Shown: positions 2,744-38,508 of the stretch, piece by piece | Layout: the number at the start of each line of letters is the position of its first letter | How positions within the stretch are numbered: the stretch's first letter is position 1 | Source: Modestobacter caceresii | GTDB lineage: Bacteria; Actinomycetota; Actinomycetes; Mycobacteriales; Geodermatophilaceae | NCBI RefSeq assembly: GCF_000761485.1 | Contig: NZ_JPMX01000075.1 | Span: forward strand, 69,502-133,501 | Direction of reading: 5' to 3' | DNA: 64,000 nt | Position numbers and translations under genes: made by a program | The notes under the pieces: model-generated | What the model saw: the letters and a program-made list of their open reading frames with translations, nothing else | Told to the model about the DNA's origin: nothing | The model's database searches: none

Positions 2744-5700
2744 CCCCGCGTCCCAGGAGGGGCCAAAATCGCGATTTTGGCCCCTCGGATCGGCGGGGGC
2801 CGCTGGGGGCGCTCGCTGGGGTGCCCGGGCTGACCGGGGCGCTGGTGCGGGCCGCGGTCGCCGCGCTCGGGCAGACCGTCGGCGTCGTCCTGCTCGCCGC
2901 CGGGCTCGCCCGGGCGGTGGCGGACGTCGCCGCCGGCGTCACCCCGGGGACGTCGCTGCTCGTGGCGCTGCTCGGCGTCGGGATCCGGGCCGCCGCCGGC
3001 GGGCTGGGCAGCGTGCTGGCCACCCGGGACGCCCGGCGGGCCGAGGACGCCCTGCGCCGCCGGCTGCTCACCCGGCTGCTGGCCGGCGAGGGCGAGGCGG
3101 TTGCGGCCGCCGGCGGCACCGGGCCGGCGGCGGTGCTGGCCAGCACCCGGCTGCACGACCTGGGCCCGGCGCTGGCCACCTACCTGCCGGCGCTCGCGCA
3201 GACGATCGTCGTCCCGCCGGTGCTGCTGGTGGTGCTGGGCCTGACCGACTGGCTCTCCGCGCTGCTGGTGGCGCTCACCCTGCCGCTGGTGCCGCTGTTC
3301 ATGGCGCTGGTCGGGCTGCACACCCGGGACCGGACGGTCGAGGCGGCCCGGGCGCTGGACCGGATCGCCGGGCACGTCGCCGAACTGGTCCGCGGCCTGC
3401 CGGTGCTGGTCGGACTGGGCCGCGCCGCCGACCAACTGTCCGCGCTGGCCGACCTCGGCGAGACCCACCGCCGGCGCACGCTGGCCACCCTGCGGATCGC
3501 CTTCCTCTCCTCGCTGGTGCTCGAGGTGCTCGCCACCCTGTCGGTCGCGCTGGTCGCGGTGACCGTCGGCGTGCGGTTGGTGCACGGGGACATGGGCCTG
3601 GACGGCGGCCTGCTCGCCCTGCTGCTCGCCCCCGAGGCGTTCGCGCCGCTGCGGGCACTGGGCGCGGCGCACCACGCCTCCGAGGACGCCGCCGAGGCCG
3701 CCGCCGCCGCCCGCGCCGTGCTCGCCGCCCCCGCTCCCCGGCCGGTGCTGGCCGCTCCGCCCGCCGGGCAGCTGCGCGGGATCACCGTCGACGGCCTCAC
3801 CGTCTCCTTCCCCGGCCGCGGCCGGCCGGCCGTCGACGGCGCCTCGTTCGAGGTGGCGCCGGGCGAGCTGGTGGCCCTGCGCGGGCCGAGCGGATCGGGC
3901 AAGTCCACCGTGCTCGCCGTCCTGGCCGGCCAGCTCCTCGACGGGGCGACCGCGCAGGTCGACGGCGTGGTGCTGGCACCGGCCGACGTCGCCGTCGTCC
4001 CGCAGTTCCCGCACACCGTCGCCGACACCGTGCTCGACGAGCTGCGCCGGCACGCCGGCGACGTCCCCGACGAGTGGGCCACCGACCTGGCCGACACCGC
4101 GCTGGCCTGGCTCGACGCCGGGCACCTGCGCGAACGCGCCTGCCGCACCCTCTCCCCCGGCGAGCTGCAGCGCGTCGCGCTGGCCCGGGCGCTGGTCCGG
4201 GTGCAGCGGGGGGCCCGGGTGCTGCTGCTGGACGAGCCGACGGCGTCCCTGGACGCGGCGAGCACCGCGCAGGTCGCCGAGCTGCTGGTCCGGCTGCGCG
4301 GCTCGCTCTGCACGGTGCTGGTCACCCACTCCCCCGCGCTGGCCGCGCTCGCCGACCGCGCCGTCGACCTCACCGGCCCCGACGCCCTGCCGCCGCTCAC
4401 CAGCGTCCCGGCGCCCGAGCGCACCGGCAGCGCCGAGGACGCCGGTGCCCCGCTCCCCGCCGCCGAGCCCGACGCCGCTCCCGAGGCGGACCGCACCACC
4501 GCCGGCCTCAGCTGGCCACGGCGGGCGGTGGTGCGGGCGGTCGCCGCCGGCTCTGCCTCGGCGGCGTCGGCCGTGGCGCTGACCGCGGTCTCGGGCTGGC
4601 TGATCGTCCGGGCCGCCGAGCAGCCGCCGATCCTCACCCTGCTGGTCGCCACGGCCGGGGTGCGCGGCTTCGGGCTGGCCCGCGCCGGGCTGCGCTGGCT
4701 GGAGCGGCTCACCGGCCACGACGCCGCCTTCCGGCTGGCGTCGAGCACCCGGCTGCAGGTGTGGCGCGCGCTGGTCGCGCAGGGCCCGGCCGCCGACCGC
4801 ACCCCCGGGCGGGCCCTGGCCCGGGTCGTCGGGGACGTCGGCCTGCTGCAGGACCTCTCCGTCCGGGTGGTCACCCCGCCCCTGGTCTCCGGCATCGTGC
4901 TGGCCGGGACGACGGCGGTGCTGGCCCTGCTCGACCCGCGGGCCGGCGCACTGGTCGCCGCGCTCGTCGGGATCGCGGTGCTGGGCGTGCTCGGCGTGCA
5001 CCGCTGGGCCGACCGGGGCGGCGCCCGGCACGCTGCCGAGCTGCGCACGGTGACCCTGCGGGAGGCCAGCGCAGCCCTCGAGGCCGCCGGCGACCTGCGG
5101 GCGCACGGCCTCACCGGCGAGGCCGTCGACCGGCTCGACCAGCTGGGCCGCCGGCAGGGCCGCGCGGCCCGGACAGGGGCCATCGCCACGGCCCTGGGCG
5201 ACGCGCTCGCGGTGCTGGCCACCGGTGCCGCCGCCGTCGGTGCGCTGGCCGTCGCGGCCGTCAGCGTCCGCGCCGGGGAGCTCTCCGCACCCACCGCCGC
5301 CGTCCTGGCGCTGGCGCCCCTGGCGCTGCTCGAGCCGCTCACCGCACTCGGCGCCGCGCAGCGGCACCGGCTGGCCTGGCACGACGCGCGCGCCCGGGTC
5401 GAGTCCGTGCTCGCCGAGCCGGTGGCCGCCGACCCGACGCCGGCCGAGCAGGTGGCCCCGCCGCGGCCGGTGCGCGAGCTGGCGCTGGAGCACGTCACCG
5501 CCGGCTGGCCCGGACGCCCGGCGGTGCTGCGCGACCTGGACGCCGTCGCCACCGCCGGGTCCGACTGGCTGGTGGTCACCGGCCCGTCCGGATCGGGCAA
5601 GTCGACGCTGCTGTCGGTGCTGATGGCCTCGCTGCGCCCCACGACCGGCGCCTACGTCCTGGGCGACGGGCGCCGCCCGGTGCCGGCCGACCGGCTGACC

Positions 5701-6180
5701 CGGGCCGACGTGCAGGGCACCATCGCCTGGTGCCCGCAGGACGCACACGTCTTCGACGCGACGCTCCGGGCCAACCTCGCGCTGGCCCGCCCCCGCGGCG
5801 AGCTGGCCGGTGCCGACGGCGAGGAGGCGATGCGCCGGGCCCTGACCGACGCCGGGCTCGGTGCGCTGCTGACCGCCCTGCCGGCGGGGCTGGACACCCC
5901 GGTCGGGGCCGGCGGCACCTCGTTGTCCGGTGGCGAGCGGCGGCGGCTGGCGGTGGCGCGGGCGCTGCTGGCCGACCGGGACGTCGTGCTGCTGGACGAG
6001 CCGACCGCCCACCTGGACCCGCCGACGGCTGCCGCCCTGGTGGCCGACCTGCGCCGGGCGCTGGCGGGCCGGCTGGTCGTCTGCGTGACCCACGACCCGG
6101 CGGTGGCCGAGGACCACGACAGCCTCCTGCAGCTGGACGGCGCACCCGCCGAGTCCACCCCGGCACCGGCGCGCCGCTGA
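2740..6180 (+). CDS. cydDC: Fused CydD-CydC heterodimeric ABC exporter (thiol reductant ABC exporter)
   Basis: The protein exports thiol reductants across the membrane and is needed to assemble cytochrome bd; in many bacteria it is two proteins. Here one 1146-residue chain carries both halves. The CydD-like half has membrane helices up to about residue 330, then a Walker A (GPSGSGKST, about 385), signature LSPGELQR (about 472) and Walker B LLLDEPTASLD. The CydC-like half repeats this with GPSGSGKST (about 948), LSGGERRR (about 1063) and VLLDEPTAHLD. A linker rich in Ala, Pro and Glu (about 545-585) joins them. ATG 2740 overlaps the cydB stop. A perfect 30-bp palindrome (2757-2786) encodes residues about 7-16, ahead of the first helix, so the N-terminus looks insertion-tolerant. 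A later start cannot be excluded. Confidence 0.95.
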   Translation: MTPRPRRGQNRDFGPSDRRGPLGALAGVPGLTGALVRAAVAALGQTVGVVLLAAGLARAVADVAAGVTPGTSLLVALLGVGIRAAAGGLGSVLATRDARRAEDALRRRLLTRLLAGEGEAVAAAGGTGPAAVLASTRLHDLGPALATYLPALAQTIVVPPVLLVVLGLTDWLSALLVALTLPLVPLFMALVGLHTRDRTVEAARALDRIAGHVAELVRGLPVLVGLGRAADQLSALADLGETHRRRTLATLRIAFLSSLVLEVLATLSVALVAVTVGVRLVHGDMGLDGGLLALLLAPEAFAPLRALGAAHHASEDAAEAAAAARAVLAAPAPRPVLAAPPAGQLRGITVDGLTVSFPGRGRPAVDGASFEVAPGELVALRGPSGSGKSTVLAVLAGQLLDGATAQVDGVVLAPADVAVVPQFPHTVADTVLDELRRHAGDVPDEWATDLADTALAWLDAGHLRERACRTLSPGELQRVALARALVRVQRGARVLLLDEPTASLDAASTAQVAELLVRLRGSLCTVLVTHSPALAALADRAVDLTGPDALPPLTSVPAPERTGSAEDAGAPLPAAEPDAAPEADRTTAGLSWPRRAVVRAVAAGSASAASAVALTAVSGWLIVRAAEQPPILTLLVATAGVRGFGLARAGLRWLERLTGHDAAFRLASSTRLQVWRALVAQGPAADRTPGRALARVVGDVGLLQDLSVRVVTPPLVSGIVLAGTTAVLALLDPRAGALVAALVGIAVLGVLGVHRWADRGGARHAAELRTVTLREASAALEAAGDLRAHGLTGEAVDRLDQLGRRQGRAARTGAIATALGDALAVLATGAAAVGALAVAAVSVRAGELSAPTAAVLALAPLALLEPLTALGAAQRHRLAWHDARARVESVLAEPVAADPTPAEQVAPPRPVRELALEHVTAGWPGRPAVLRDLDAVATAGSDWLVVTGPSGSGKSTLLSVLMASLRPTTGAYVLGDGRRPVPADRLTRADVQGTIAWCPQDAHVFDATLRANLALARPRGELAGADGEEAMRRALTDAGLGALLTALPAGLDTPVGAGGTSLSGGERRRLAVARALLADRDVVLLDEPTAHLDPPTAAALVADLRRALAGRLVVCVTHDPAVAEDHDSLLQLDGAPAESTPAPARR
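2757..2786. repeat. Perfect 30-bp palindrome in the cydDC 5' coding region
   Basis: The arm GAGGGGCCAAAATCG is followed directly by its exact reverse complement, with no spacer. The AT-rich core CCAAAAT/ATTTTGG is unusual in DNA of this composition. The same core recurs at 9185-9208 and 58215-58242, which marks a dispersed element family. It lies 17 bases after the cydDC start codon, is read through in frame and contributes QNRDFGP to the protein. Confidence 0.85.
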
Positions 6181-31876: not shown

Positions 31877-32101
31877 ATGACCGAGGACGCAGGGCCGGCC
31901 GGGGACGTCGGCGTGATCTGTTCGGCGAAGGGCTGCCGGGAGCCGGCGACCGTCGTCCTGGTGTGGAACAACCCGAAGGTGCACACCCCCGACCGGGAGA
32001 AGACCTGGACGGCGTGCGAGGCGCACCGCGAGCAGCTCTCGCACCACCTGGCGATCCGGTCGTTCCTGCGCCGCGTCGAGCCGGTCCGCCCGCTGCGGTA
32101 G
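31877..32101 (+). CDS. Small conserved actinobacterial Cys-rich protein
   Basis: A 74-residue protein with a CSAKGC pair, a third Cys and a His (WTACEAHREQLSHHL), the spacing of a small zinc-binding domain. The phrase VWNNPKVHTPDREKTW is strongly conserved in a family of short actinobacterial proteins that databases often mislabel as acetone carboxylase; no such activity is supported by the sequence. ATG 31877 is the start. The TPP riboswitch of the next gene begins 12 bases after its stop codon, so read-through transcription could feed that switch. Confidence 0.72.
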   Translation: MTEDAGPAGDVGVICSAKGCREPATVVLVWNNPKVHTPDREKTWTACEAHREQLSHHLAIRSFLRRVEPVRPLR

Positions 32102-32113
32102 CTTCAGCGGCGC

Positions 32114-32198
32114 ACACGGGAGCCCGGGCGCGGGCTGAGAAGGCGGACGACCACCGCCGACCGTCCACACCTGATCCGGTTCATGCCGGCGGAGGGAG
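32114..32198 (+). ncRNA. TPP (thiamin pyrophosphate) riboswitch, THI element
   Basis: The element contains the conserved pieces in order: GGGAGCCC pairing with GGGCT, the invariant CTGAGA (32135-32140), a side hairpin GGCGG/CCGCC, then GACCGT, ACCTGATCCGG, the loop TTCATGCCGG and the closing GGAGGGA (32191-32197). This matches the TPP-sensing riboswitch of actinobacteria. The GGAGGGA segment is also the ribosome binding site of the next gene, nine bases before ATG 32206, which implies translational repression when TPP is bound. It is remarkable because the downstream genes are a zinc dehydrogenase and an MFS transporter rather than known thiamine genes. Confidence 0.93.
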
Positions 32199-32205
32199 CT
32201 GCTCG

Positions 32206-33216
32206 ATGCTCGCAGCCCGTTTCCACGCACCTGACCGACCCCTGGCCCTGGACGACGTCCCGGTGCCCGAACCCGCCCCCGACGAGGTGCGGGTGCGGGT
32301 GCGCGCGGCCGGGGTCTGCGGCACCGAACTGCACTTCACCGACGGCCTGTACGCGCCGTCCCGGACGCCGATGACGCTGGGCCACGAGGCCGCGGGCACG
32401 GTCGACGCGGTCGGGTCGGCCGTCACCGGCTGGGCCGAGGGCGACCGGGTCGCCGTCTACTACTACCTCTTCTGCGGCAGCTGCCGCTGGTGCCTGCGCG
32501 GTCGGCAGAACCTGTGCCTCACCCCGCGCGGGGTGCTGGCCTTCGCCGCGGACGGCGCCTTCGCCGAGCAGCTGGTGGTGCCGGCGCACTGCCTGGTCCG
32601 GCTGCCCGACGAGCTGCCGTTCGAGGCTGCCGCACCGCTGTGCTGCGCGGGCACGACCGCGGTGCACGCGCTCACCGAGGCCGCGGTCGAGCCCGGTGAC
32701 GTGGTCGTCGTGCTCGGCGCGGGCGGGGTCGGGCTGGCCGCGGTGCAGGAGGCCCGACGACGCGGCGGCGTGGTCGTGGCCGTCAGCCGGGACGACGCCC
32801 GTAGGTCGGCTGCCCGGTCCGCCGGAGCGGTGGCCGCGGTCTCCCCCGCCGAACTCGCCGACACCGTGGCCCGGCTGTCCGGCGGGCAGGGCGCCGACGT
32901 CGTCGTGGAGCTCGCCGGGGTGACGGCGACCCTGGAGCTGGCGACGGCGGTGCTCGGTCGCCGCGGGCGGCTGGTGCTGGTCGGGTACAGCGCCGACGCA
33001 CTGACGGTGAGCCCGCTGGGGATGGTGGTCGCCGAGCAGCGGGTCATCGCCAGCGTGGGCAACACGCTGGCCGAGCTGGAGCAGGCGGTGGCGCTGGCCG
33101 CGGCCGGGCAGCTGGCGCCGCCGGTGGCGGGCACGCTGCCGCTGACCCAGGTGAACGAGGCGCTGGACCGGCTGCGCAAGGGGGACGTCGCAGGGCGGCT
33201 CGTGCTCACCCCCTGA
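32206..33216 (+). CDS. Zinc-dependent medium-chain alcohol dehydrogenase under a TPP riboswitch
   Basis: A 336-residue MDR enzyme. The catalytic zinc ligands are Cys38 (GVCGTELHF) and His60-Glu61 (LGHEAAG), and the structural zinc site is C90/C93/C96/C104 (FCGSCRWCLRGRQNLC). The Rossmann loop is VLGAGGVGLAA. It oxidises or reduces an unidentified alcohol, polyol or aldehyde with NAD(P). The preceding TPP riboswitch ties it to thiamine status; a role in thiamine salvage, in providing a precursor, or in replacing a TPP-dependent step is conceivable but unproven. The MFS gene begins 44 bases after the stop and probably shares the transcript. Confidence 0.92.
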   Translation: MLAARFHAPDRPLALDDVPVPEPAPDEVRVRVRAAGVCGTELHFTDGLYAPSRTPMTLGHEAAGTVDAVGSAVTGWAEGDRVAVYYYLFCGSCRWCLRGRQNLCLTPRGVLAFAADGAFAEQLVVPAHCLVRLPDELPFEAAAPLCCAGTTAVHALTEAAVEPGDVVVVLGAGGVGLAAVQEARRRGGVVVAVSRDDARRSAARSAGAVAAVSPAELADTVARLSGGQGADVVVELAGVTATLELATAVLGRRGRLVLVGYSADALTVSPLGMVVAEQRVIASVGNTLAELEQAVALAAAGQLAPPVAGTLPLTQVNEALDRLRKGDVAGRLVLTP

Positions 33217-33260
33217 CGCCCCGCAGCGGTGTCCCGGGCCGCGTGTGAGGATCGGCGCTC

Positions 33261-34514
33261 GTGCGACATCGCAGCAAGGACGCCCCCCTCCCCCGCGAGG
33301 TCGGCGTCCTGGCGATCGTCGCCTTCGTCGTCGCCCTCGGCTTCGGAATCGTCGCCCCGGCGATCCCGCTGTTCGTCCGCGACTACGGGGTCGGCACCAC
33401 CGCCGTCGGGTTCGCCGTCAGCGCGTTCGCCTTCTTCCGGTTCGTCTCCGCCTTCGCCGGGGGCTCCCTCGTCGAGCGGATCGGCGAGCGCGCCGTGCTC
33501 GCCGCCGGGCTGGCGATCGTCGCGGTCGCCACCGCCGCGGCCGCCCTGGCCGGCAACTTCCCGCTCTTCGTCGCCCTGCGCGCGGCCGGCGGGATCGGCA
33601 GCGCGATGTTCACCGTGGCCGCCCTCTCGCTGCTGCTGCGCACGGCACCGGCGGCCCAGCGCGGCCGGGCTGCGGCCACCTACCAGGGCGGTTTCATCCT
33701 CGGCGGCATCGCCGGCCCGGCGGCCGGCGGGTTCCTCGCCGAGGTCTCCCCGCGGCTGCCGTTCTTCGTCTACGGCGGCTTCCTGCTGGTCGCGGGGGTG
33801 GTCGCGCTGGTCCTGCTGCGCCCGGCCGCGCTGCCCCCGGTCGCGGGAGCCGCGGCCGACCCGGACCCCGCGGCTGACCAGGTGCGCGGCGGTGGCCCCT
33901 CGGCCGTGGCCGTGCCCCCCGCGGGCGCCGATGGTGGCGGGCTGCGCGCGGCGCTGCGGTCCCGGGCCTACGTCGCGGCGCTGGTGGCCAACCTGGGCGT
34001 GGGCTGGGTGCTGTTCGGCGTCCGCAACTCCCTCGTGCCGCTGTACGTGACCGAGGAGCTGGGCAAGACGGTGGCCTGGGCCGGCGCCGGCCTGCTCGCG
34101 GGGTCGGTGGCGCAGGCGGTCGGGCTGCTGCGCGCCGGGCGGCTGGCGGACAGCTGGGGTCGCCGCCCCTCGCTGCTGCTCGGTTCGGCACTGTCCACCG
34201 CGGCGATCGCGGTCCTGGTGCTGCCGCCGACCACCGCCGCGTTCCTGCTCTCGATGGCCACCTTCGGGCTGGGCGCCTCGCTGCTGGCCAGCGTGCCGGC
34301 CGCGGTGGTCGGTGACGTCAGCCCGGCCCGAGGCGGCCGGGTGGTGGCGGTCTTCCAGATGGTCGCCGACCTGGGCGCGGTGGCCGGGCCGCTGGTCGCC
34401 GGCTGGCTCACCGACGCCTTCTCCTACCAGGTCGCCTTCGCCGTCAGCGCCGCCGTGCTGGGCGCGGCGCTGCTCGCTGCGCTGGCGATGCCGCGGGACC
34501 GCCCCGCCGGCTGA
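33261..34514 (+). CDS. MFS transporter, probably in the TPP-riboswitch operon
   Basis: A 417-residue 12-helix major facilitator with the loop 2-3 motif GGSLVERIGERAVL (GxxxDRxGRR type) and the repeat at GRLADSWGRRPSLL in the second half, typical of drug:H+ antiporter-1 transporters. GTG 33261 is the start. The 44-base gap to the dehydrogenase makes cotranscription from the riboswitch-controlled leader likely, so a thiamine-related substrate (vitamin, precursor or breakdown product) deserves consideration. Homology alone would suggest a multidrug or sugar exporter. It faces the DinB-like gene at 34528 with 13 bases between stop codons. Confidence 0.87.
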   Translation: MRHRSKDAPLPREVGVLAIVAFVVALGFGIVAPAIPLFVRDYGVGTTAVGFAVSAFAFFRFVSAFAGGSLVERIGERAVLAAGLAIVAVATAAAALAGNFPLFVALRAAGGIGSAMFTVAALSLLLRTAPAAQRGRAAATYQGGFILGGIAGPAAGGFLAEVSPRLPFFVYGGFLLVAGVVALVLLRPAALPPVAGAAADPDPAADQVRGGGPSAVAVPPAGADGGGLRAALRSRAYVAALVANLGVGWVLFGVRNSLVPLYVTEELGKTVAWAGAGLLAGSVAQAVGLLRAGRLADSWGRRPSLLLGSALSTAAIAVLVLPPTTAAFLLSMATFGLGASLLASVPAAVVGDVSPARGGRVVAVFQMVADLGAVAGPLVAGWLTDAFSYQVAFAVSAAVLGAALLAALAMPRDRPAG

Positions 34515-34527
34515 GTCGGCAGGCCGG

Positions 34528-35220
34528 TCAGAGCCAGGGCGCCAGCGTCGGCAGCGGACCGTCGGCCTCCAGCTCCTCCCCCGCACTGCGGCCGGTGACC
34601 CACGCCGCGACCGCCGGCAGCGGACCGGCGACGGCCAGGGCGCCGGTGCCCCACTCCCGGTCACCGGCGAACAACGCGACGTCGGGCACGGAGTCGCGGC
34701 GGTCCCACATCCGGAAGACGTCGTCGACGAGCGCGGCCAGGACGTCGTCCGGGAGGTCGGTGAAGGCGACGCCCTCGTCCAGGTCGACCGCGTGCACCCA
34801 CACCTCCCGGCAGCGCATCCAGGGCACCTCCGCGGCCGGCACCTGGCGCCCCTGCGCGGTCCGCACCTGGGCTGCCCACGCCTCCTCCGGCAGGCCACGG
34901 ACCGCGGCTGCCAGCCGGCCGGTCGCGGCCACCACGGCAGCGCGCAGCTCGGCGGCCGGCAGCTGTGCCGCCTCGTAGATCTGGGCGTCCCGCGCCTCCA
35001 TCGAGGCGTACATCGGCGTCTCCACCCCGGTGCGCGCCCAGGTCAGCAGGTTCACCAGCGCGTCGGCGTTGGCCGCCAGGTGCGCCAGGAGGTGCCGCCG
35101 CGACCAGCCGGTCAGCAGGGACGGCGCGTCGAGATCCTCGTCGGTCAGCCGGCCCAGCGCCGTCCCGAGGAGTCGCTCGCCGTCCTCCCACCAGCCGAGC
35201 GTCTCGACCGGCGCGGTCAT
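34528..35220 (-). CDS. Mycothiol-dependent maleylpyruvate isomerase family protein
   Basis: A 230-residue protein with an N-terminal DinB-like metal-binding domain (LLTGWSRRHLLAHLAANADAL, with the first His ligand, and CREVWVHAVDLDEG with the later His and Asp) and a C-terminal MDMPI domain (ALFAGDREWGTGALAVAGPL). The family includes mycothiol-dependent maleylpyruvate isomerase from the gentisate pathway, but most actinobacterial members have unknown thiol-transfer substrates, and no aromatic catabolic genes are here. ATG 35220 is the start. It is divergent from the receiver-flavoprotein gene. Confidence 0.87.
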   Translation of the reverse strand: MTAPVETLGWWEDGERLLGTALGRLTDEDLDAPSLLTGWSRRHLLAHLAANADALVNLLTWARTGVETPMYASMEARDAQIYEAAQLPAAELRAAVVAATGRLAAAVRGLPEEAWAAQVRTAQGRQVPAAEVPWMRCREVWVHAVDLDEGVAFTDLPDDVLAALVDDVFRMWDRRDSVPDVALFAGDREWGTGALAVAGPLPAVAAWVTGRSAGEELEADGPLPTLAPWL

Positions 35221-35408
35221 CGACGGGTTCCGGGCTCGTGCGCGGGCGCGGTCATGACGTCACCCTGCCGCGCCGCGGGCCGACGTGCCAGAGCTGGCCC
35301 GCGGCCGATCGGGACTACCGCCGTTCACCTGCACCCGGTTGGATGGAGATGCCATCGGGGGCCTGCCCACCGGGGCGGTCCACCTCGACGGCCCCGACCG
35401 GAGGTGCC

Positions 35409-37070
35409 GTGCCCGCGCGACCTGTCCTGCTCACCGTCGACGACGACCGCGCGGTCAGCCGCGCCGTCGCCCGCGACCTGCGCCGCCACTACGGCGACCG
35501 CTACCGGATCGTCCGCGCCGAGAGCGGCCGCGACGCGCTCGCCGTGCTGCGTGAGCTGACCGCGCGCGGCGAGGCCGCCGCCCTGCTCCTCGCCGACCAC
35601 CGGATGCCCGGGATGACCGGCGTGGAGTTCCTGGAGCAGGCGATGGACCTGGCGCCGACGGCCAAGCGGGTCCTGCTCACCGCCTACGCCGACACCGACG
35701 CGGCGATCCGGGCGATCAACGACGTCGACCTGGACCACTACCTGCTCAAGCCCTGGGACCCGCCGGAGGAGCTGCTCTACCCGGTGCTCGACGAGCTGCT
35801 CGAGGCCTGGTCGCGCACCGCCCGGGCGCCGTTCGAGGGCATCACGCTGCTGGGCCACCAGTGGTCGGCGGAGACCCAGCAGCTCAAGGAGTTCCTGGCC
35901 CGCAACCAGGTGCCCTACCGGCACCTCCAGGGCGAGGACGCCGCCGGCATCCGCACCGCCGCCGACCTGGCGGACGACGCGACGCTGCCGGCCCTGCTCT
36001 TCCCCGAGGGAACCGTGCTCCGCCGGCCCACCCTCCAGCAGGTCGCCCAGCAGGTCGGGCTGGCCACGACCGCCGGCAGCCCGTTCTACGACGTCGTGGT
36101 GGTGGGCGGCGGACCGGCCGGGCTGGGCGCGGCGGTGTACGCGGCCAGCGAGGGGCTGCGCACCCTGCTCGTCGAGCGCACGGCCACCGGCGGGCAGGCC
36201 GGCCAGAGCAGCCGGATCGAGAACTACCTCGGGTTCCCGCTCGGGGTGTCGGGCAGCGAGCTCGCCCAGCGGGCCCGCGACCAGGCCGTGCGGTTCGGCG
36301 TCGAACTCCTCACCGCCGCCGAGGTCGTGCAGATCGCACCCAAGGGCGATGGCCGGGCGCTGCTCTTCGCCGACGGCAGCCAGGTCGCCGCGCACGCCGT
36401 CGTGCTGGCCACCGGCGTCTCCTGGCGGCTGCTGCCGGCCGACGGCGCCGCCGACCTCACCGGCCGCGGCGTCTACTACGGCGCCGTCGCGCACGAGGCC
36501 GCCGACTGCGCCGGCGAGGAGGTCTTCGTCGTCGGCGCGGCCAACTCCGCCGGCCAGGCCGCGCTGCACTTCGCCCGCTTCGCCAGCAAGGTGGTGGTGC
36601 TCTGCCGGGGCACCGACATCCGGCAGAGCATGTCCGAGTACCTGGTCGCCCGGATCGAGGCCGACCCGCTGATCGAGGTGCGCACCTGCACCCAGGTGCG
36701 GGCCGTGGAGGGCGCCGACCACCTCGAGCGACTCGTGCTCGCCGACTCCCGTACCGGTGCCACCGAGGTCGTCCCGGCGTCCCGGCTCTTCGTGTTCATC
36801 GGCGCCTCGCCGCCCACCGAGTGGCTGGGCGAGGCGTTCCTGCGCGACGACCGCGGCTTCCTGCGCACCGGGCCGGCGCTGCTGGACGAGGCGGGCCGCC
36901 CGCCGCGGGACTGGCCGCTGACCCGGGCGCCGTACCACCTGGAGTGCTCCGTGCCCGGCGTGTTCGTGGCCGGCGACGTCCGCGCCGAGTCGGTGAAGCG
37001 GGTCGCCTCCGCCGTCGGCGAGGGCGCGATGGCCGTCACGCTCGTGCACCGCTACCTGGAGGCGAACTGA
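35409..37070 (+). CDS. Receiver–glutaredoxin-like–thioredoxin-reductase-like fusion flavoprotein
   Basis: A 553-residue fusion. Residues 1-135 are a response-regulator receiver with phosphoacceptor Asp63, Thr91 and Lys114 (YLLKPW). Residues about 141-220 look like a glutaredoxin fold (GITLLGHQW, then LPALLFPEGTVLRRP) in which the usual CPYC is replaced by WSAE. From about 227 it is thioredoxin-reductase-like, with GGGPAGLGA for FAD, VFVVGAANSAGQAA for NAD(P)H and GVFVAGDVRAESVKRV. The CxxC disulphide of true TrxR is missing; the position reads GVYYGAVAHEAADC. Phosphorylation probably gates an NAD(P)H-using or sensing flavoprotein. GTG 35409 has GGAGG four bases away. The kinase gene follows after one base. 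Confidence 0.9.
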   Translation: MPARPVLLTVDDDRAVSRAVARDLRRHYGDRYRIVRAESGRDALAVLRELTARGEAAALLLADHRMPGMTGVEFLEQAMDLAPTAKRVLLTAYADTDAAIRAINDVDLDHYLLKPWDPPEELLYPVLDELLEAWSRTARAPFEGITLLGHQWSAETQQLKEFLARNQVPYRHLQGEDAAGIRTAADLADDATLPALLFPEGTVLRRPTLQQVAQQVGLATTAGSPFYDVVVVGGGPAGLGAAVYAASEGLRTLLVERTATGGQAGQSSRIENYLGFPLGVSGSELAQRARDQAVRFGVELLTAAEVVQIAPKGDGRALLFADGSQVAAHAVVLATGVSWRLLPADGAADLTGRGVYYGAVAHEAADCAGEEVFVVGAANSAGQAALHFARFASKVVVLCRGTDIRQSMSEYLVARIEADPLIEVRTCTQVRAVEGADHLERLVLADSRTGATEVVPASRLFVFIGASPPTEWLGEAFLRDDRGFLRTGPALLDEAGRPPRDWPLTRAPYHLECSVPGVFVAGDVRAESVKRVASAVGEGAMAVTLVHRYLEAN

Positions 37071-37071
37071 G

Positions 37072-38508
37072 ATGACCGCGAGCCACGGGCCCTCCTCGGG
37101 GGTCGACCTCGCCGAGGTGCGCAGCCTGTTCCTGTTCGCCGAGCTGGAGGACGCCGACCAGCGCTGGGTGGCCGAGCACAGCGACGTGCGGGTGTACGAC
37201 GCCGACGTCGTCGTCTTCGCCGAGGGACAGCCCTCCGACGCGCTGTACGTGCTGCTGGAGGGTGGGCTGCTGCTGTCCAAGCACACCGACGGGGAGGACG
37301 TCGTCCTCAACGACACGACGCACCGCGGCGCCTACGCCGGCGCGGTCCGCGCGTTCACCCAGAGCCGCGACCCGAACTTCCAGACCACGCTGCGGACCAC
37401 CCGGCCCAGCCGGTTCCTGCGGTTGCCGGCCGAGGACTTCGCCGCGCTGGTGCACCGGCTGTGCCCCATGGCGGTACACCTGCTCGACGGCCTGTACGAG
37501 GGCATCCGGATGACCGAGTCGACGATGCGCCAGCGCGAGCACCTGGTGCAGCTGGGGACGCTGTCGGCCAACCTCGCCCACGAGCTGAACAACCCGGCAG
37601 CGGCCGCGGTGCGAGCCACCGAGCAGCTGCGCTCCCGGGTCGCCGGCATGCGCCGGAAGCTCGGCCTGCTGTCGGAGGCCGGGCTCTCCCCCGAGCTGGT
37701 CGGCCGGCTGATCAAGACGCAGGAGATGTCCGTCGAGCGGGCGCTCAAGCCGCACGCCGATCTGACCGCGCTCCAGGAGAGCGACCTCGAGGACGCGATC
37801 GCCGACCGGCTGGAGGAGATCGGCGTCGAGCAGGCGCTGGAGCTCGCACCGGTGTTCGCCGGCTCCGGCATGGACGCGCAGTGGGTGGACGACGTCGTGG
37901 AGCAGGTCGACTCCGGACTGGAGTGGGACGCCGCGTTCGGCTGGCTGCGCTACACCCTGGAGACCGAGGCGCTGATAGACGAGATCGAGGAGGCCACCAC
38001 CCGGATCTCCTCCCTCGTCGGCGCGGTGAAGCAGTACTCGCACCTGGACCAGGCCCGGCACTCCGACGTCGACGTCAAGCCCGGGCTGGAGAGCACGCTG
38101 GTGATGCTGGCCCGCAAGCTCACCGGCATCGAGGTGCACCGTGACTACGCCGCCGACCTGCCGCCGGTGCCCGGCTACCCGGCCGAGCTGAACCAGGTCT
38201 GGACCAACCTGATCGACAACGCCGCCGACGCGATGGACGGGTCCGGGGTGCTGACCCTGCGCACCCGGGCCGACCAGCACGCGGTGTTCGTGGAGGTCAC
38301 CGACGACGGCCCGGGGGTGCCGGAGGCGGTGCGCCAGGACCTGTTCGAGCCGTTCGTGACCACCAAGCGGGCCGGCGACGGGAGCGGGCTGGGACTGGAC
38401 AACGCGAGGCGGATCATCGAGCGGCGGCACGGCGGGTCGCTGACGTACACGACCGGTCCGGAGGGGACGACGTTCTGCGTCCGGCTGCCGCTGAGCCGGA
38501 CGCACTGA
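37072..38508 (+). CDS. Cyclic-nucleotide-binding-domain histidine kinase
   Basis: A 478-residue cytoplasmic kinase without membrane helices. Residues about 15-140 form a CRP/cNMP-type β-barrel (LFLFAELEDADQRW, YVLLEGGLLLSK). His170 in LSANLAHELNNPAAAA is the phosphoacceptor, a helical region of about 130 residues follows, and the ATPase has its N box in NQVWTNLIDNAADAM, G1 in DDGPGVPE and G2 in GSGLGLDNARRI. It is the probable phosphodonor for the receiver of the adjacent flavoprotein: the start lies one base after that stop. The ligand of the barrel (cAMP, haem, or none) is unknown. Confidence 0.93.
   Translation: MTASHGPSSGVDLAEVRSLFLFAELEDADQRWVAEHSDVRVYDADVVVFAEGQPSDALYVLLEGGLLLSKHTDGEDVVLNDTTHRGAYAGAVRAFTQSRDPNFQTTLRTTRPSRFLRLPAEDFAALVHRLCPMAVHLLDGLYEGIRMTESTMRQREHLVQLGTLSANLAHELNNPAAAAVRATEQLRSRVAGMRRKLGLLSEAGLSPELVGRLIKTQEMSVERALKPHADLTALQESDLEDAIADRLEEIGVEQALELAPVFAGSGMDAQWVDDVVEQVDSGLEWDAAFGWLRYTLETEALIDEIEEATTRISSLVGAVKQYSHLDQARHSDVDVKPGLESTLVMLARKLTGIEVHRDYAADLPPVPGYPAELNQVWTNLIDNAADAMDGSGVLTLRTRADQHAVFVEVTDDGPGVPEAVRQDLFEPFVTTKRAGDGSGLGLDNARRIIERRHGGSLTYTTGPEGTTFCVRLPLSRTH

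Follow-up and report, generated by a model that had tools for sequence, protein, structure and literature searches.

Thiamin degrades readily, and microbes subsist partly on its fragments. The known steps of thiamin salvage are, to our knowledge, those of hydrolases, kinases and transporters. The locus described here lies in a stretch of 64,000 nucleotides, hereafter called the window, from Modestobacter caceresii (Geodermatophilaceae; assembly GCF_000761485.1, contig NZ_JPMX01000075.1, positions 69,502 to 133,501 of the forward strand). It consists of a thiamin pyrophosphate (TPP) riboswitch at the start of a gene encoding a zinc-dependent alcohol dehydrogenase, hereafter called ADH, and a following gene encoding a transporter of the major facilitator superfamily (MFS). 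On balance, it seems somewhat probable that the riboswitch represses translation of an ADH which acts in the salvage of a thiamin moiety, and that the MFS protein stands outside this pathway.

The element in the window is full length, with CTGAGA, ACCTGAT and GGGA boxes, as in TPP riboswitches of the Rfam family RF00059. It differs from them by having the Shine-Dalgarno (SD) sequence inside the aptamer and by overlapping the start codon, and its predicted target is a zinc dehydrogenase, none of which is listed among the thiamin genes in the available parts of PMC3766115, PMC6593275 and PMC12452182. The thiM-thiE-thiD operon, encoding the kinase of 5-(2-hydroxyethyl)-4-methylthiazole (HET), thiamin monophosphate synthase and the kinase of hydroxymethylpyrimidine (HMP) and its phosphate, is under the same kind of control as ADH. 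In Blastococcus and Geodermatophilus ADH lies next to this operon in divergent orientation, the two elements standing back to back, and would contribute an extra oxidoreductase step. In the pyrimidine salvage system of TenA (thiaminase II), relatives of ADH adjoin tenA at three loci (L131, L084 and L089), which differ from the window in that the ADHs are 39-47 % identical to that of the window and no TPP element was found there. ThiU, which we take to be an MFS protein, resembles the MFS protein of the window in that a TPP element lies near the gene for the transporter, but across the other loci examined the window MFS gene shows no conserved association with TPP elements or thi genes. ThiU is a predicted HET transporter according to the part of PMC6593275 that was available. 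Among the open-access literature matches listed, available in part and excluding the founding comparative study of THI elements, there was no paper on a TPP-controlled zinc dehydrogenase; such a gene may already figure in that study or in a database annotation.

The TPP element and the dehydrogenase gene

The leader and the gene it precedes comprise the following features, in coordinates of the window.

32106..32215, + strand: TPP riboswitch aptamer (RF00059), full length, overlapping the first ADH codons
32170..32172, + strand: CCU strand of aptamer helix P4, pairing with the SD sequence (Rfam alignment pair list)
32191..32195, + strand: SD sequence GGAGG of ADH, with AGG inside helix P4 (sequence and pair list)
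32206..33216, + strand: ADH, zinc-dependent medium-chain dehydrogenase/reductase, the predicted riboswitch target; ATG start, 336 amino acids (Pfam)

With an E value of 7.5e-09 for the whole window, the match to RF00059 scored 58.3 bits, above the gathering cut-off of 54.3; it covered all 105 model positions. The boxes CTGAGA, ACCTGATCCGG and GGAGGGA, read from the sequence, are all present. The complete THI element of the original prediction was confirmed, the match beginning 8 bases before the start given there, and no Rfam match other than RF00059 reached the gathering score over the whole window. In Modestobacter elements the usual GTAGGGA box has G in second place. For covariation, 27 ADH leaders (25 distinct) and 24 named pairs were considered; the pairs were formed in 93.3 % of cells, with 28 double-change cells, and the covariation score of 0.149 exceeded all 500 shuffles (mean 0.069) and all slid versions. 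Helices P4 and P5 are nearly invariant in these leaders and hence uninformative on covariation. As judged from its sequence, the aptamer is a TPP riboswitch of the ordinary type, the unusual part being the gene under its predicted control, and the element presumably binds TPP and represses that gene.

The last 10 bases of the aptamer match belong to the ADH gene, which leaves no space for a terminator between them, and control would act on translation. The ATG of ADH, at 32206, is 10 nt downstream of GGAGG, and the Rfam alignment gives the P4-SD pairs 32170-32195, 32171-32194 and 32172-32193; the CCU strand of P4 was paired in 98.7 % of cells in alignment A3, hardly varying. This anatomy suggests direct masking of the SD sequence by the aptamer. 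At low TPP, helix P4, which holds the SD sequence, would loosen and ADH would be made. The proposal that the closing box doubles as the ribosome binding site and mediates translational repression agrees with the position of GGAGG and the inclusion of AGG in P4, but not with ligand-free folding, which yielded no free SD sequence. That result counts against the proposed control, as do the unconstrained ensemble, in which most of the SD sequence stays paired, the unexceptional stability of the leader fold (z -0.98) and helix P1, which was paired in just 54 % of cells in the ADH leader alignment. Thermodynamic folding was rejected as decisive evidence for the ON state, on account of the mostly paired SD sequence and the z value. 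Promoter and terminator scans, which are poorly suited to GC-rich actinobacteria, found none.

The ADH protein has the Pfam domains ADH_N and ADH_zinc_N and is 85-97 % identical to ADHs from named Modestobacter records. Its AlphaFold model (mean predicted local distance difference test score, pLDDT, 86) has 2eer as the best match in the PDB, with a template modelling (TM) score of 0.94. The structures 2eer (ST2577), Rhodococcus ruber ADH-A and FurX resemble the window ADH in fold, the 50 best structures having TM scores of 0.88-0.94, and share its zinc-site residues, but these 50 are 30-37 % identical to it and thiamin appears in none of their titles. C38, H60, E61 and C147 and, in a second set, C90, C93, C96 and C104 were invariant in 32 aligned ADH rows, and we take these to be the catalytic and the structural zinc ligands, respectively. 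The Rossmann glycines were invariant in the same rows, as was R195, where the second Rossmann strand ends. An arginine after this strand presumably marks a preference for NADP(H), and by this rule ADH probably uses NADP(H). The NCBIfam scan of ADH gave 25 matches, every one under its cut-off (best 192.7 vs 349), and membership of a named NCBIfam family was rejected. The view that neither ADH nor the MFS protein resembles a thiamine gene held for the families scanned, but genomic context links ADH to thiamin, as described below.

Five TPP matches, four above the cut-off, were found in the genome of the window. Besides the element at ADH, they precede thiM-thiE-thiD (C6), a CytX-like gene followed by thiO, thiS and thiG (C46), thiC (C52) and a sodium:solute symporter (SSS) gene (C84). 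The CytX-like gene scored 204.4 bits, under its family cut-off of 309.85, and the element at C84 (L005 1501-1614) scored 49.7 bits, also under the cut-off. The SSS-family symporter gene of C84 (L009 7485-8933) may, we presume, encode a ThiV-like thiamin transporter. On C46 (L007 1819-3068) two tandem TenA-family genes are divergent from the TPP-controlled CytX-like gene, and tandem TenA genes also adjoin thiM in genomes G016 and G006.

Conservation of the element with the dehydrogenase

The family set comprised 112 genomes of Geodermatophilaceae, in which ADH was called at E <= 1e-60. It was present in 30 of these, 14 of the 23 in the genus Modestobacter and 16 in three other genera. Of the 30 orthologues, 20 had the element at the start of ADH by the Rfam cut-off, and all 30 (one cut by a contig end) had it by model R1, which was built from 28 elements including 14 ADH-start elements of these same orthologues. 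The survey of orthologues suggested with the original prediction thus favoured the element, which is kept with ADH, but not the pairing of ADH with the MFS gene, which within the family occurs in Modestobacter alone.

Beyond the family, genome contigs were scanned, giving 62 loci. Model R1 found an ADH-start element also in metagenome-assembled genomes (MAGs) of Acidimicrobiia (L066), Gaiellaceae (L080) and Egibacteraceae (L083), with Rfam scores of 54.1, 69.3 and 50.2 bits, respectively, the cut-off being passed by Gaiellaceae alone; the element was not found at the ADH start in L064 and L074. Between its CTGAGA and ACC boxes, the L080 aptamer lacks a stem that the other ADH leaders have. A survey of 396 genomes of the phylum gave three matches besides that of the window, namely G758 (apparently the Egibacteraceae record again), G533 and G651. 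When 394 genomes of the class were searched with the L040 ADH (E 1e-75), only that of the window matched, and a plasmid search for ADH (E 1e-60) gave no match.

In a tree of 58 ADH rows, the 30 TPP-controlled ADHs fell within one group of 32 rows (SH-aLRT 91). The rows were 53 of the 55 loci L056-L110 (L065 and L107, with fewer than 280 residues, were dropped), L042, L045, L049, L127 and the window; others, e.g. L131 and L133, were left out. The motif AAGVCGTELHF is a candidate signature shared by the proposed family of TPP-repressed dehydrogenases.

The riboswitch could instead be a captured or decaying leader, with ADH unrelated to thiamin, and the 82 family genomes without ADH and two close homologues without the element are compatible with this. 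Such an origin is highly improbable given an element which covaries, stands at 30 of 30 family orthologues by R1 and recurs in three further actinobacterial lineages, in one of them above the Rfam cut-off.

Thiamin genes near the dehydrogenase and its proposed role

Of the 16 orthologues of the family outside Modestobacter, 14 lie divergently to thiM, 229-272 bp away from it, the exceptions being L051 and L052, both Blastococcus. The thiM side bears its own TPP element in all 14 divergent loci; a ThiD match was found in 13 and a ThiE match in 12 of them (L054 is a short contig), and Pfam confirmed ThiM, ThiE and ThiD in the examples scanned. The Acidimicrobiia locus L066 is an operon with the order TPP element-ADH-thiD-thiE, and in G533 (L133) ADH is directly followed by thiE and a gene resembling aminoimidazole ribotide (AIR) synthase. 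In G651 (L131) tenA lies directly upstream of ADH, and the gene orders in L084 and L089 are ALDH-ADH-tenA-tenA and ALDH-tenA-ADH-tenA, respectively, ALDH being an aldehyde dehydrogenase gene. The three TenA copies tested at L131, L084 and L089 pass the NCBIfam salvage_TenA cut-off. TenA was present in 10 of the 14 genomes checked and absent from those of L066, L080, G533 and G085. Genes in the GC-rich loci were called by codon composition, and the calls used were confirmed by hmmscan or tblastn. By its regulation, its gene order and, more weakly, its co-occurrence, the ADH family looks like one tied to thiamin salvage.

As regards the reaction, we infer cofactor, substrate and direction as follows: ADH would use NADPH to reduce a thiamin moiety in its aldehyde form, giving the primary alcohol needed by the salvage kinases. 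The recurrent partners of ADH are ThiD, ThiE and TenA, which favours the pyrimidine branch, and our first choice of reaction, possible although the chances are rather against it, is the formation of HMP, for use by ThiD, from the 5-formyl pyrimidine. It is unlikely that ADH serves the thiazole branch instead, regenerating HET from thiazole acetaldehyde for ThiM. The divergence of ADH from thiM described above would agree with this, as would the presence of ThiM in 29 of the 30 ADH-positive family genomes, compared with 53 of the 82 ADH-negative ones (plain Fisher p 2.6e-4, kinship ignored). However, thiM shares its operon with thiE and thiD, so the linkage does not single out ThiM, and outside the family the genomes of L066, L083, L084, L089, L074, L133 (G533) and L131 (G651) are without a ThiM match, ThiM being present in those of L080 and L064.

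An ADH which copes with a side effect of low TPP, e.g. aldehydes arising from slowed TPP enzymes, rather than acting on a thiamin precursor, would suit the breadth of the enzyme family and the aldehyde dehydrogenase in the L084 and L089 clusters. It is quite unlikely, as the clusters with thiD-thiE, thiE and tenA point to precursors rather than to central metabolism. A role in thiamin-moiety salvage is preferred. More tentatively, a TPP-repressed family of NADPH-type zinc dehydrogenases, occurring in several actinobacterial classes, may return the aldehyde of a thiamin half, most likely the 5-formyl pyrimidine, to the alcohol used by ThiD or ThiM.

Several observations weigh against a role of ADH in salvage. 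The loci of Modestobacter, the two exceptional Blastococcus, Gaiellaceae and Egibacteraceae had no thiM, thiE, thiD or tenA match in the fetched flanks. The link with ThiM is weaker within genera (p 0.013 in g3 and 0.079 in g2), and most genomes of g4 and g1 possess ThiM regardless of ADH. ThiM (E <= 1e-10) was absent from seven of the nine non-family genomes, several of which are MAGs of uncertain completeness; ThiM is thus not obligatory, and one substrate may not suit every context. No tested ADH relative below 49 % identity has an above-threshold element, and the relatives from Actinomycetospora (73 % identical) and Halosaccharopolyspora (52 %) had neither an element nor any sought thiamin gene in the fetched flanks. 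The aldehyde dehydrogenase gene adjoining ADH in L084 and L089 would also suit oxidation.

Other genes and elements were observed near ADH relatives. In G533 (L133 4274-6041), ADH-thiE is preceded by a gene of the formamidase family and by the 3' half of a TPP-like element, which looks truncated and, with 25.1 bits, is far under the cut-off. A PfkB-family kinase gene follows the TPP-controlled ADH in the Gaiellaceae MAG (L080 4911-6860). Several Acidimicrobiia ADHs of about 40 % identity are divergent from genes resembling those of ATP-binding cassette (ABC) transporters (L085, L088, L090, L095 and L096; about 3000-6000); the ABC binding protein of L085, where alone the domains were checked, is NMT1/THI5-like, and the ABC genes of the other four loci were judged by eye. 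Blastococcus tunisiensis has a cobalamin riboswitch near ADH (L034 149-322, 102.3 bits), beside which its contig (L041) carries CbtA and a weakly FhuF-like gene.

The adjacent transporter gene and the meaning of the locus

Two further genes flank the riboswitch and ADH.

33261..34514, + strand: MFS transporter, probably a resident bystander; GTG start, 417 amino acids (Pfam MFS_1)
31877..32101, + strand: gene of a 74-amino-acid small protein, found directly before the MFS gene in the ADH-less Modestobacter loci L119 and L120 (tblastn of L118-L120, L127 and L128)

The order of a zinc dehydrogenase gene and, after 44 bases on the same strand, an MFS gene had been read correctly. The MFS gene has an SD-like GAGG of its own at 33247-33250, and the aptamer starts 5 bases after the end of the 74-amino-acid gene. 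Among solved structures the best sequence match of the MFS protein is NorA, over residues 12-188 (the first half).

It is improbable that ADH and the MFS protein form a single TPP-controlled unit of salvage or export. Such a unit is suggested by the shared strand and short gap, by the absence of a terminator-like site between the genes in a scan poorly suited to GC-rich DNA, and by the adjacency of the two genes in 13 of the 14 ADH-positive Modestobacter (in the 14th, a fragmented assembly, they are on separate contigs). Against this, the MFS gene occurs in 89 of the 112 family genomes (E <= 1e-50), 64 of which lack ADH at the thresholds used, and adjoins ADH in none of the 16 ADH-positive genomes of other genera. 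Four Modestobacter have the MFS gene without ADH (G088, G094, G096 and G106), and the three fetched, all but G094, gave the loci L118-L120, in which the MFS gene keeps the same neighbours without ADH or the element; the 74-amino-acid gene is directly before it in two of these and about 1 kb away in L118. Neither a TPP element nor, where sought nearby, thi genes were found at the nine MFS loci without this ADH (L118-L120 and six of other genera). The best matches of the MFS protein are drug-efflux-like, and export would be a strange task for a gene that should be switched off at high TPP.

The pairing of ADH with the MFS protein as one functional unit was therefore rejected, in view of the wide distribution of the MFS gene, its Modestobacter-limited adjacency to ADH and its persistence in place without ADH and the element. 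The undescribed salvage route of the original prediction retains ADH, by the conserved element and the thi and tenA clusters, but loses the MFS protein as a partner. The MFS protein is probably a bystander outside the pathway, judging from these comparisons of loci; transcription from ADH may run on into its gene, but none of the observations links it to thiamin. A tree of 20 MFS rows places the ADH-less G106 among ADH-bearing species, which fits a loss of ADH there, but gives no resolution for the remaining two ADH-less species or at its base. Downstream in the window (34965-38508), an open reading frame resembling, by eye, a response-regulator/thioredoxin-reductase fusion is followed by one for a histidine-kinase-like protein with a cyclic-nucleotide-binding domain.

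The locus illustrates that gene order can mislead, the neighbouring MFS gene appearing co-regulated with ADH in one genus only. ADH is a defined enzyme with few candidate substrates. If the proposed role is true, a conserved TPP-controlled reductase would mean that the recovery of thiamin fragments extends to their oxidised pieces as well.

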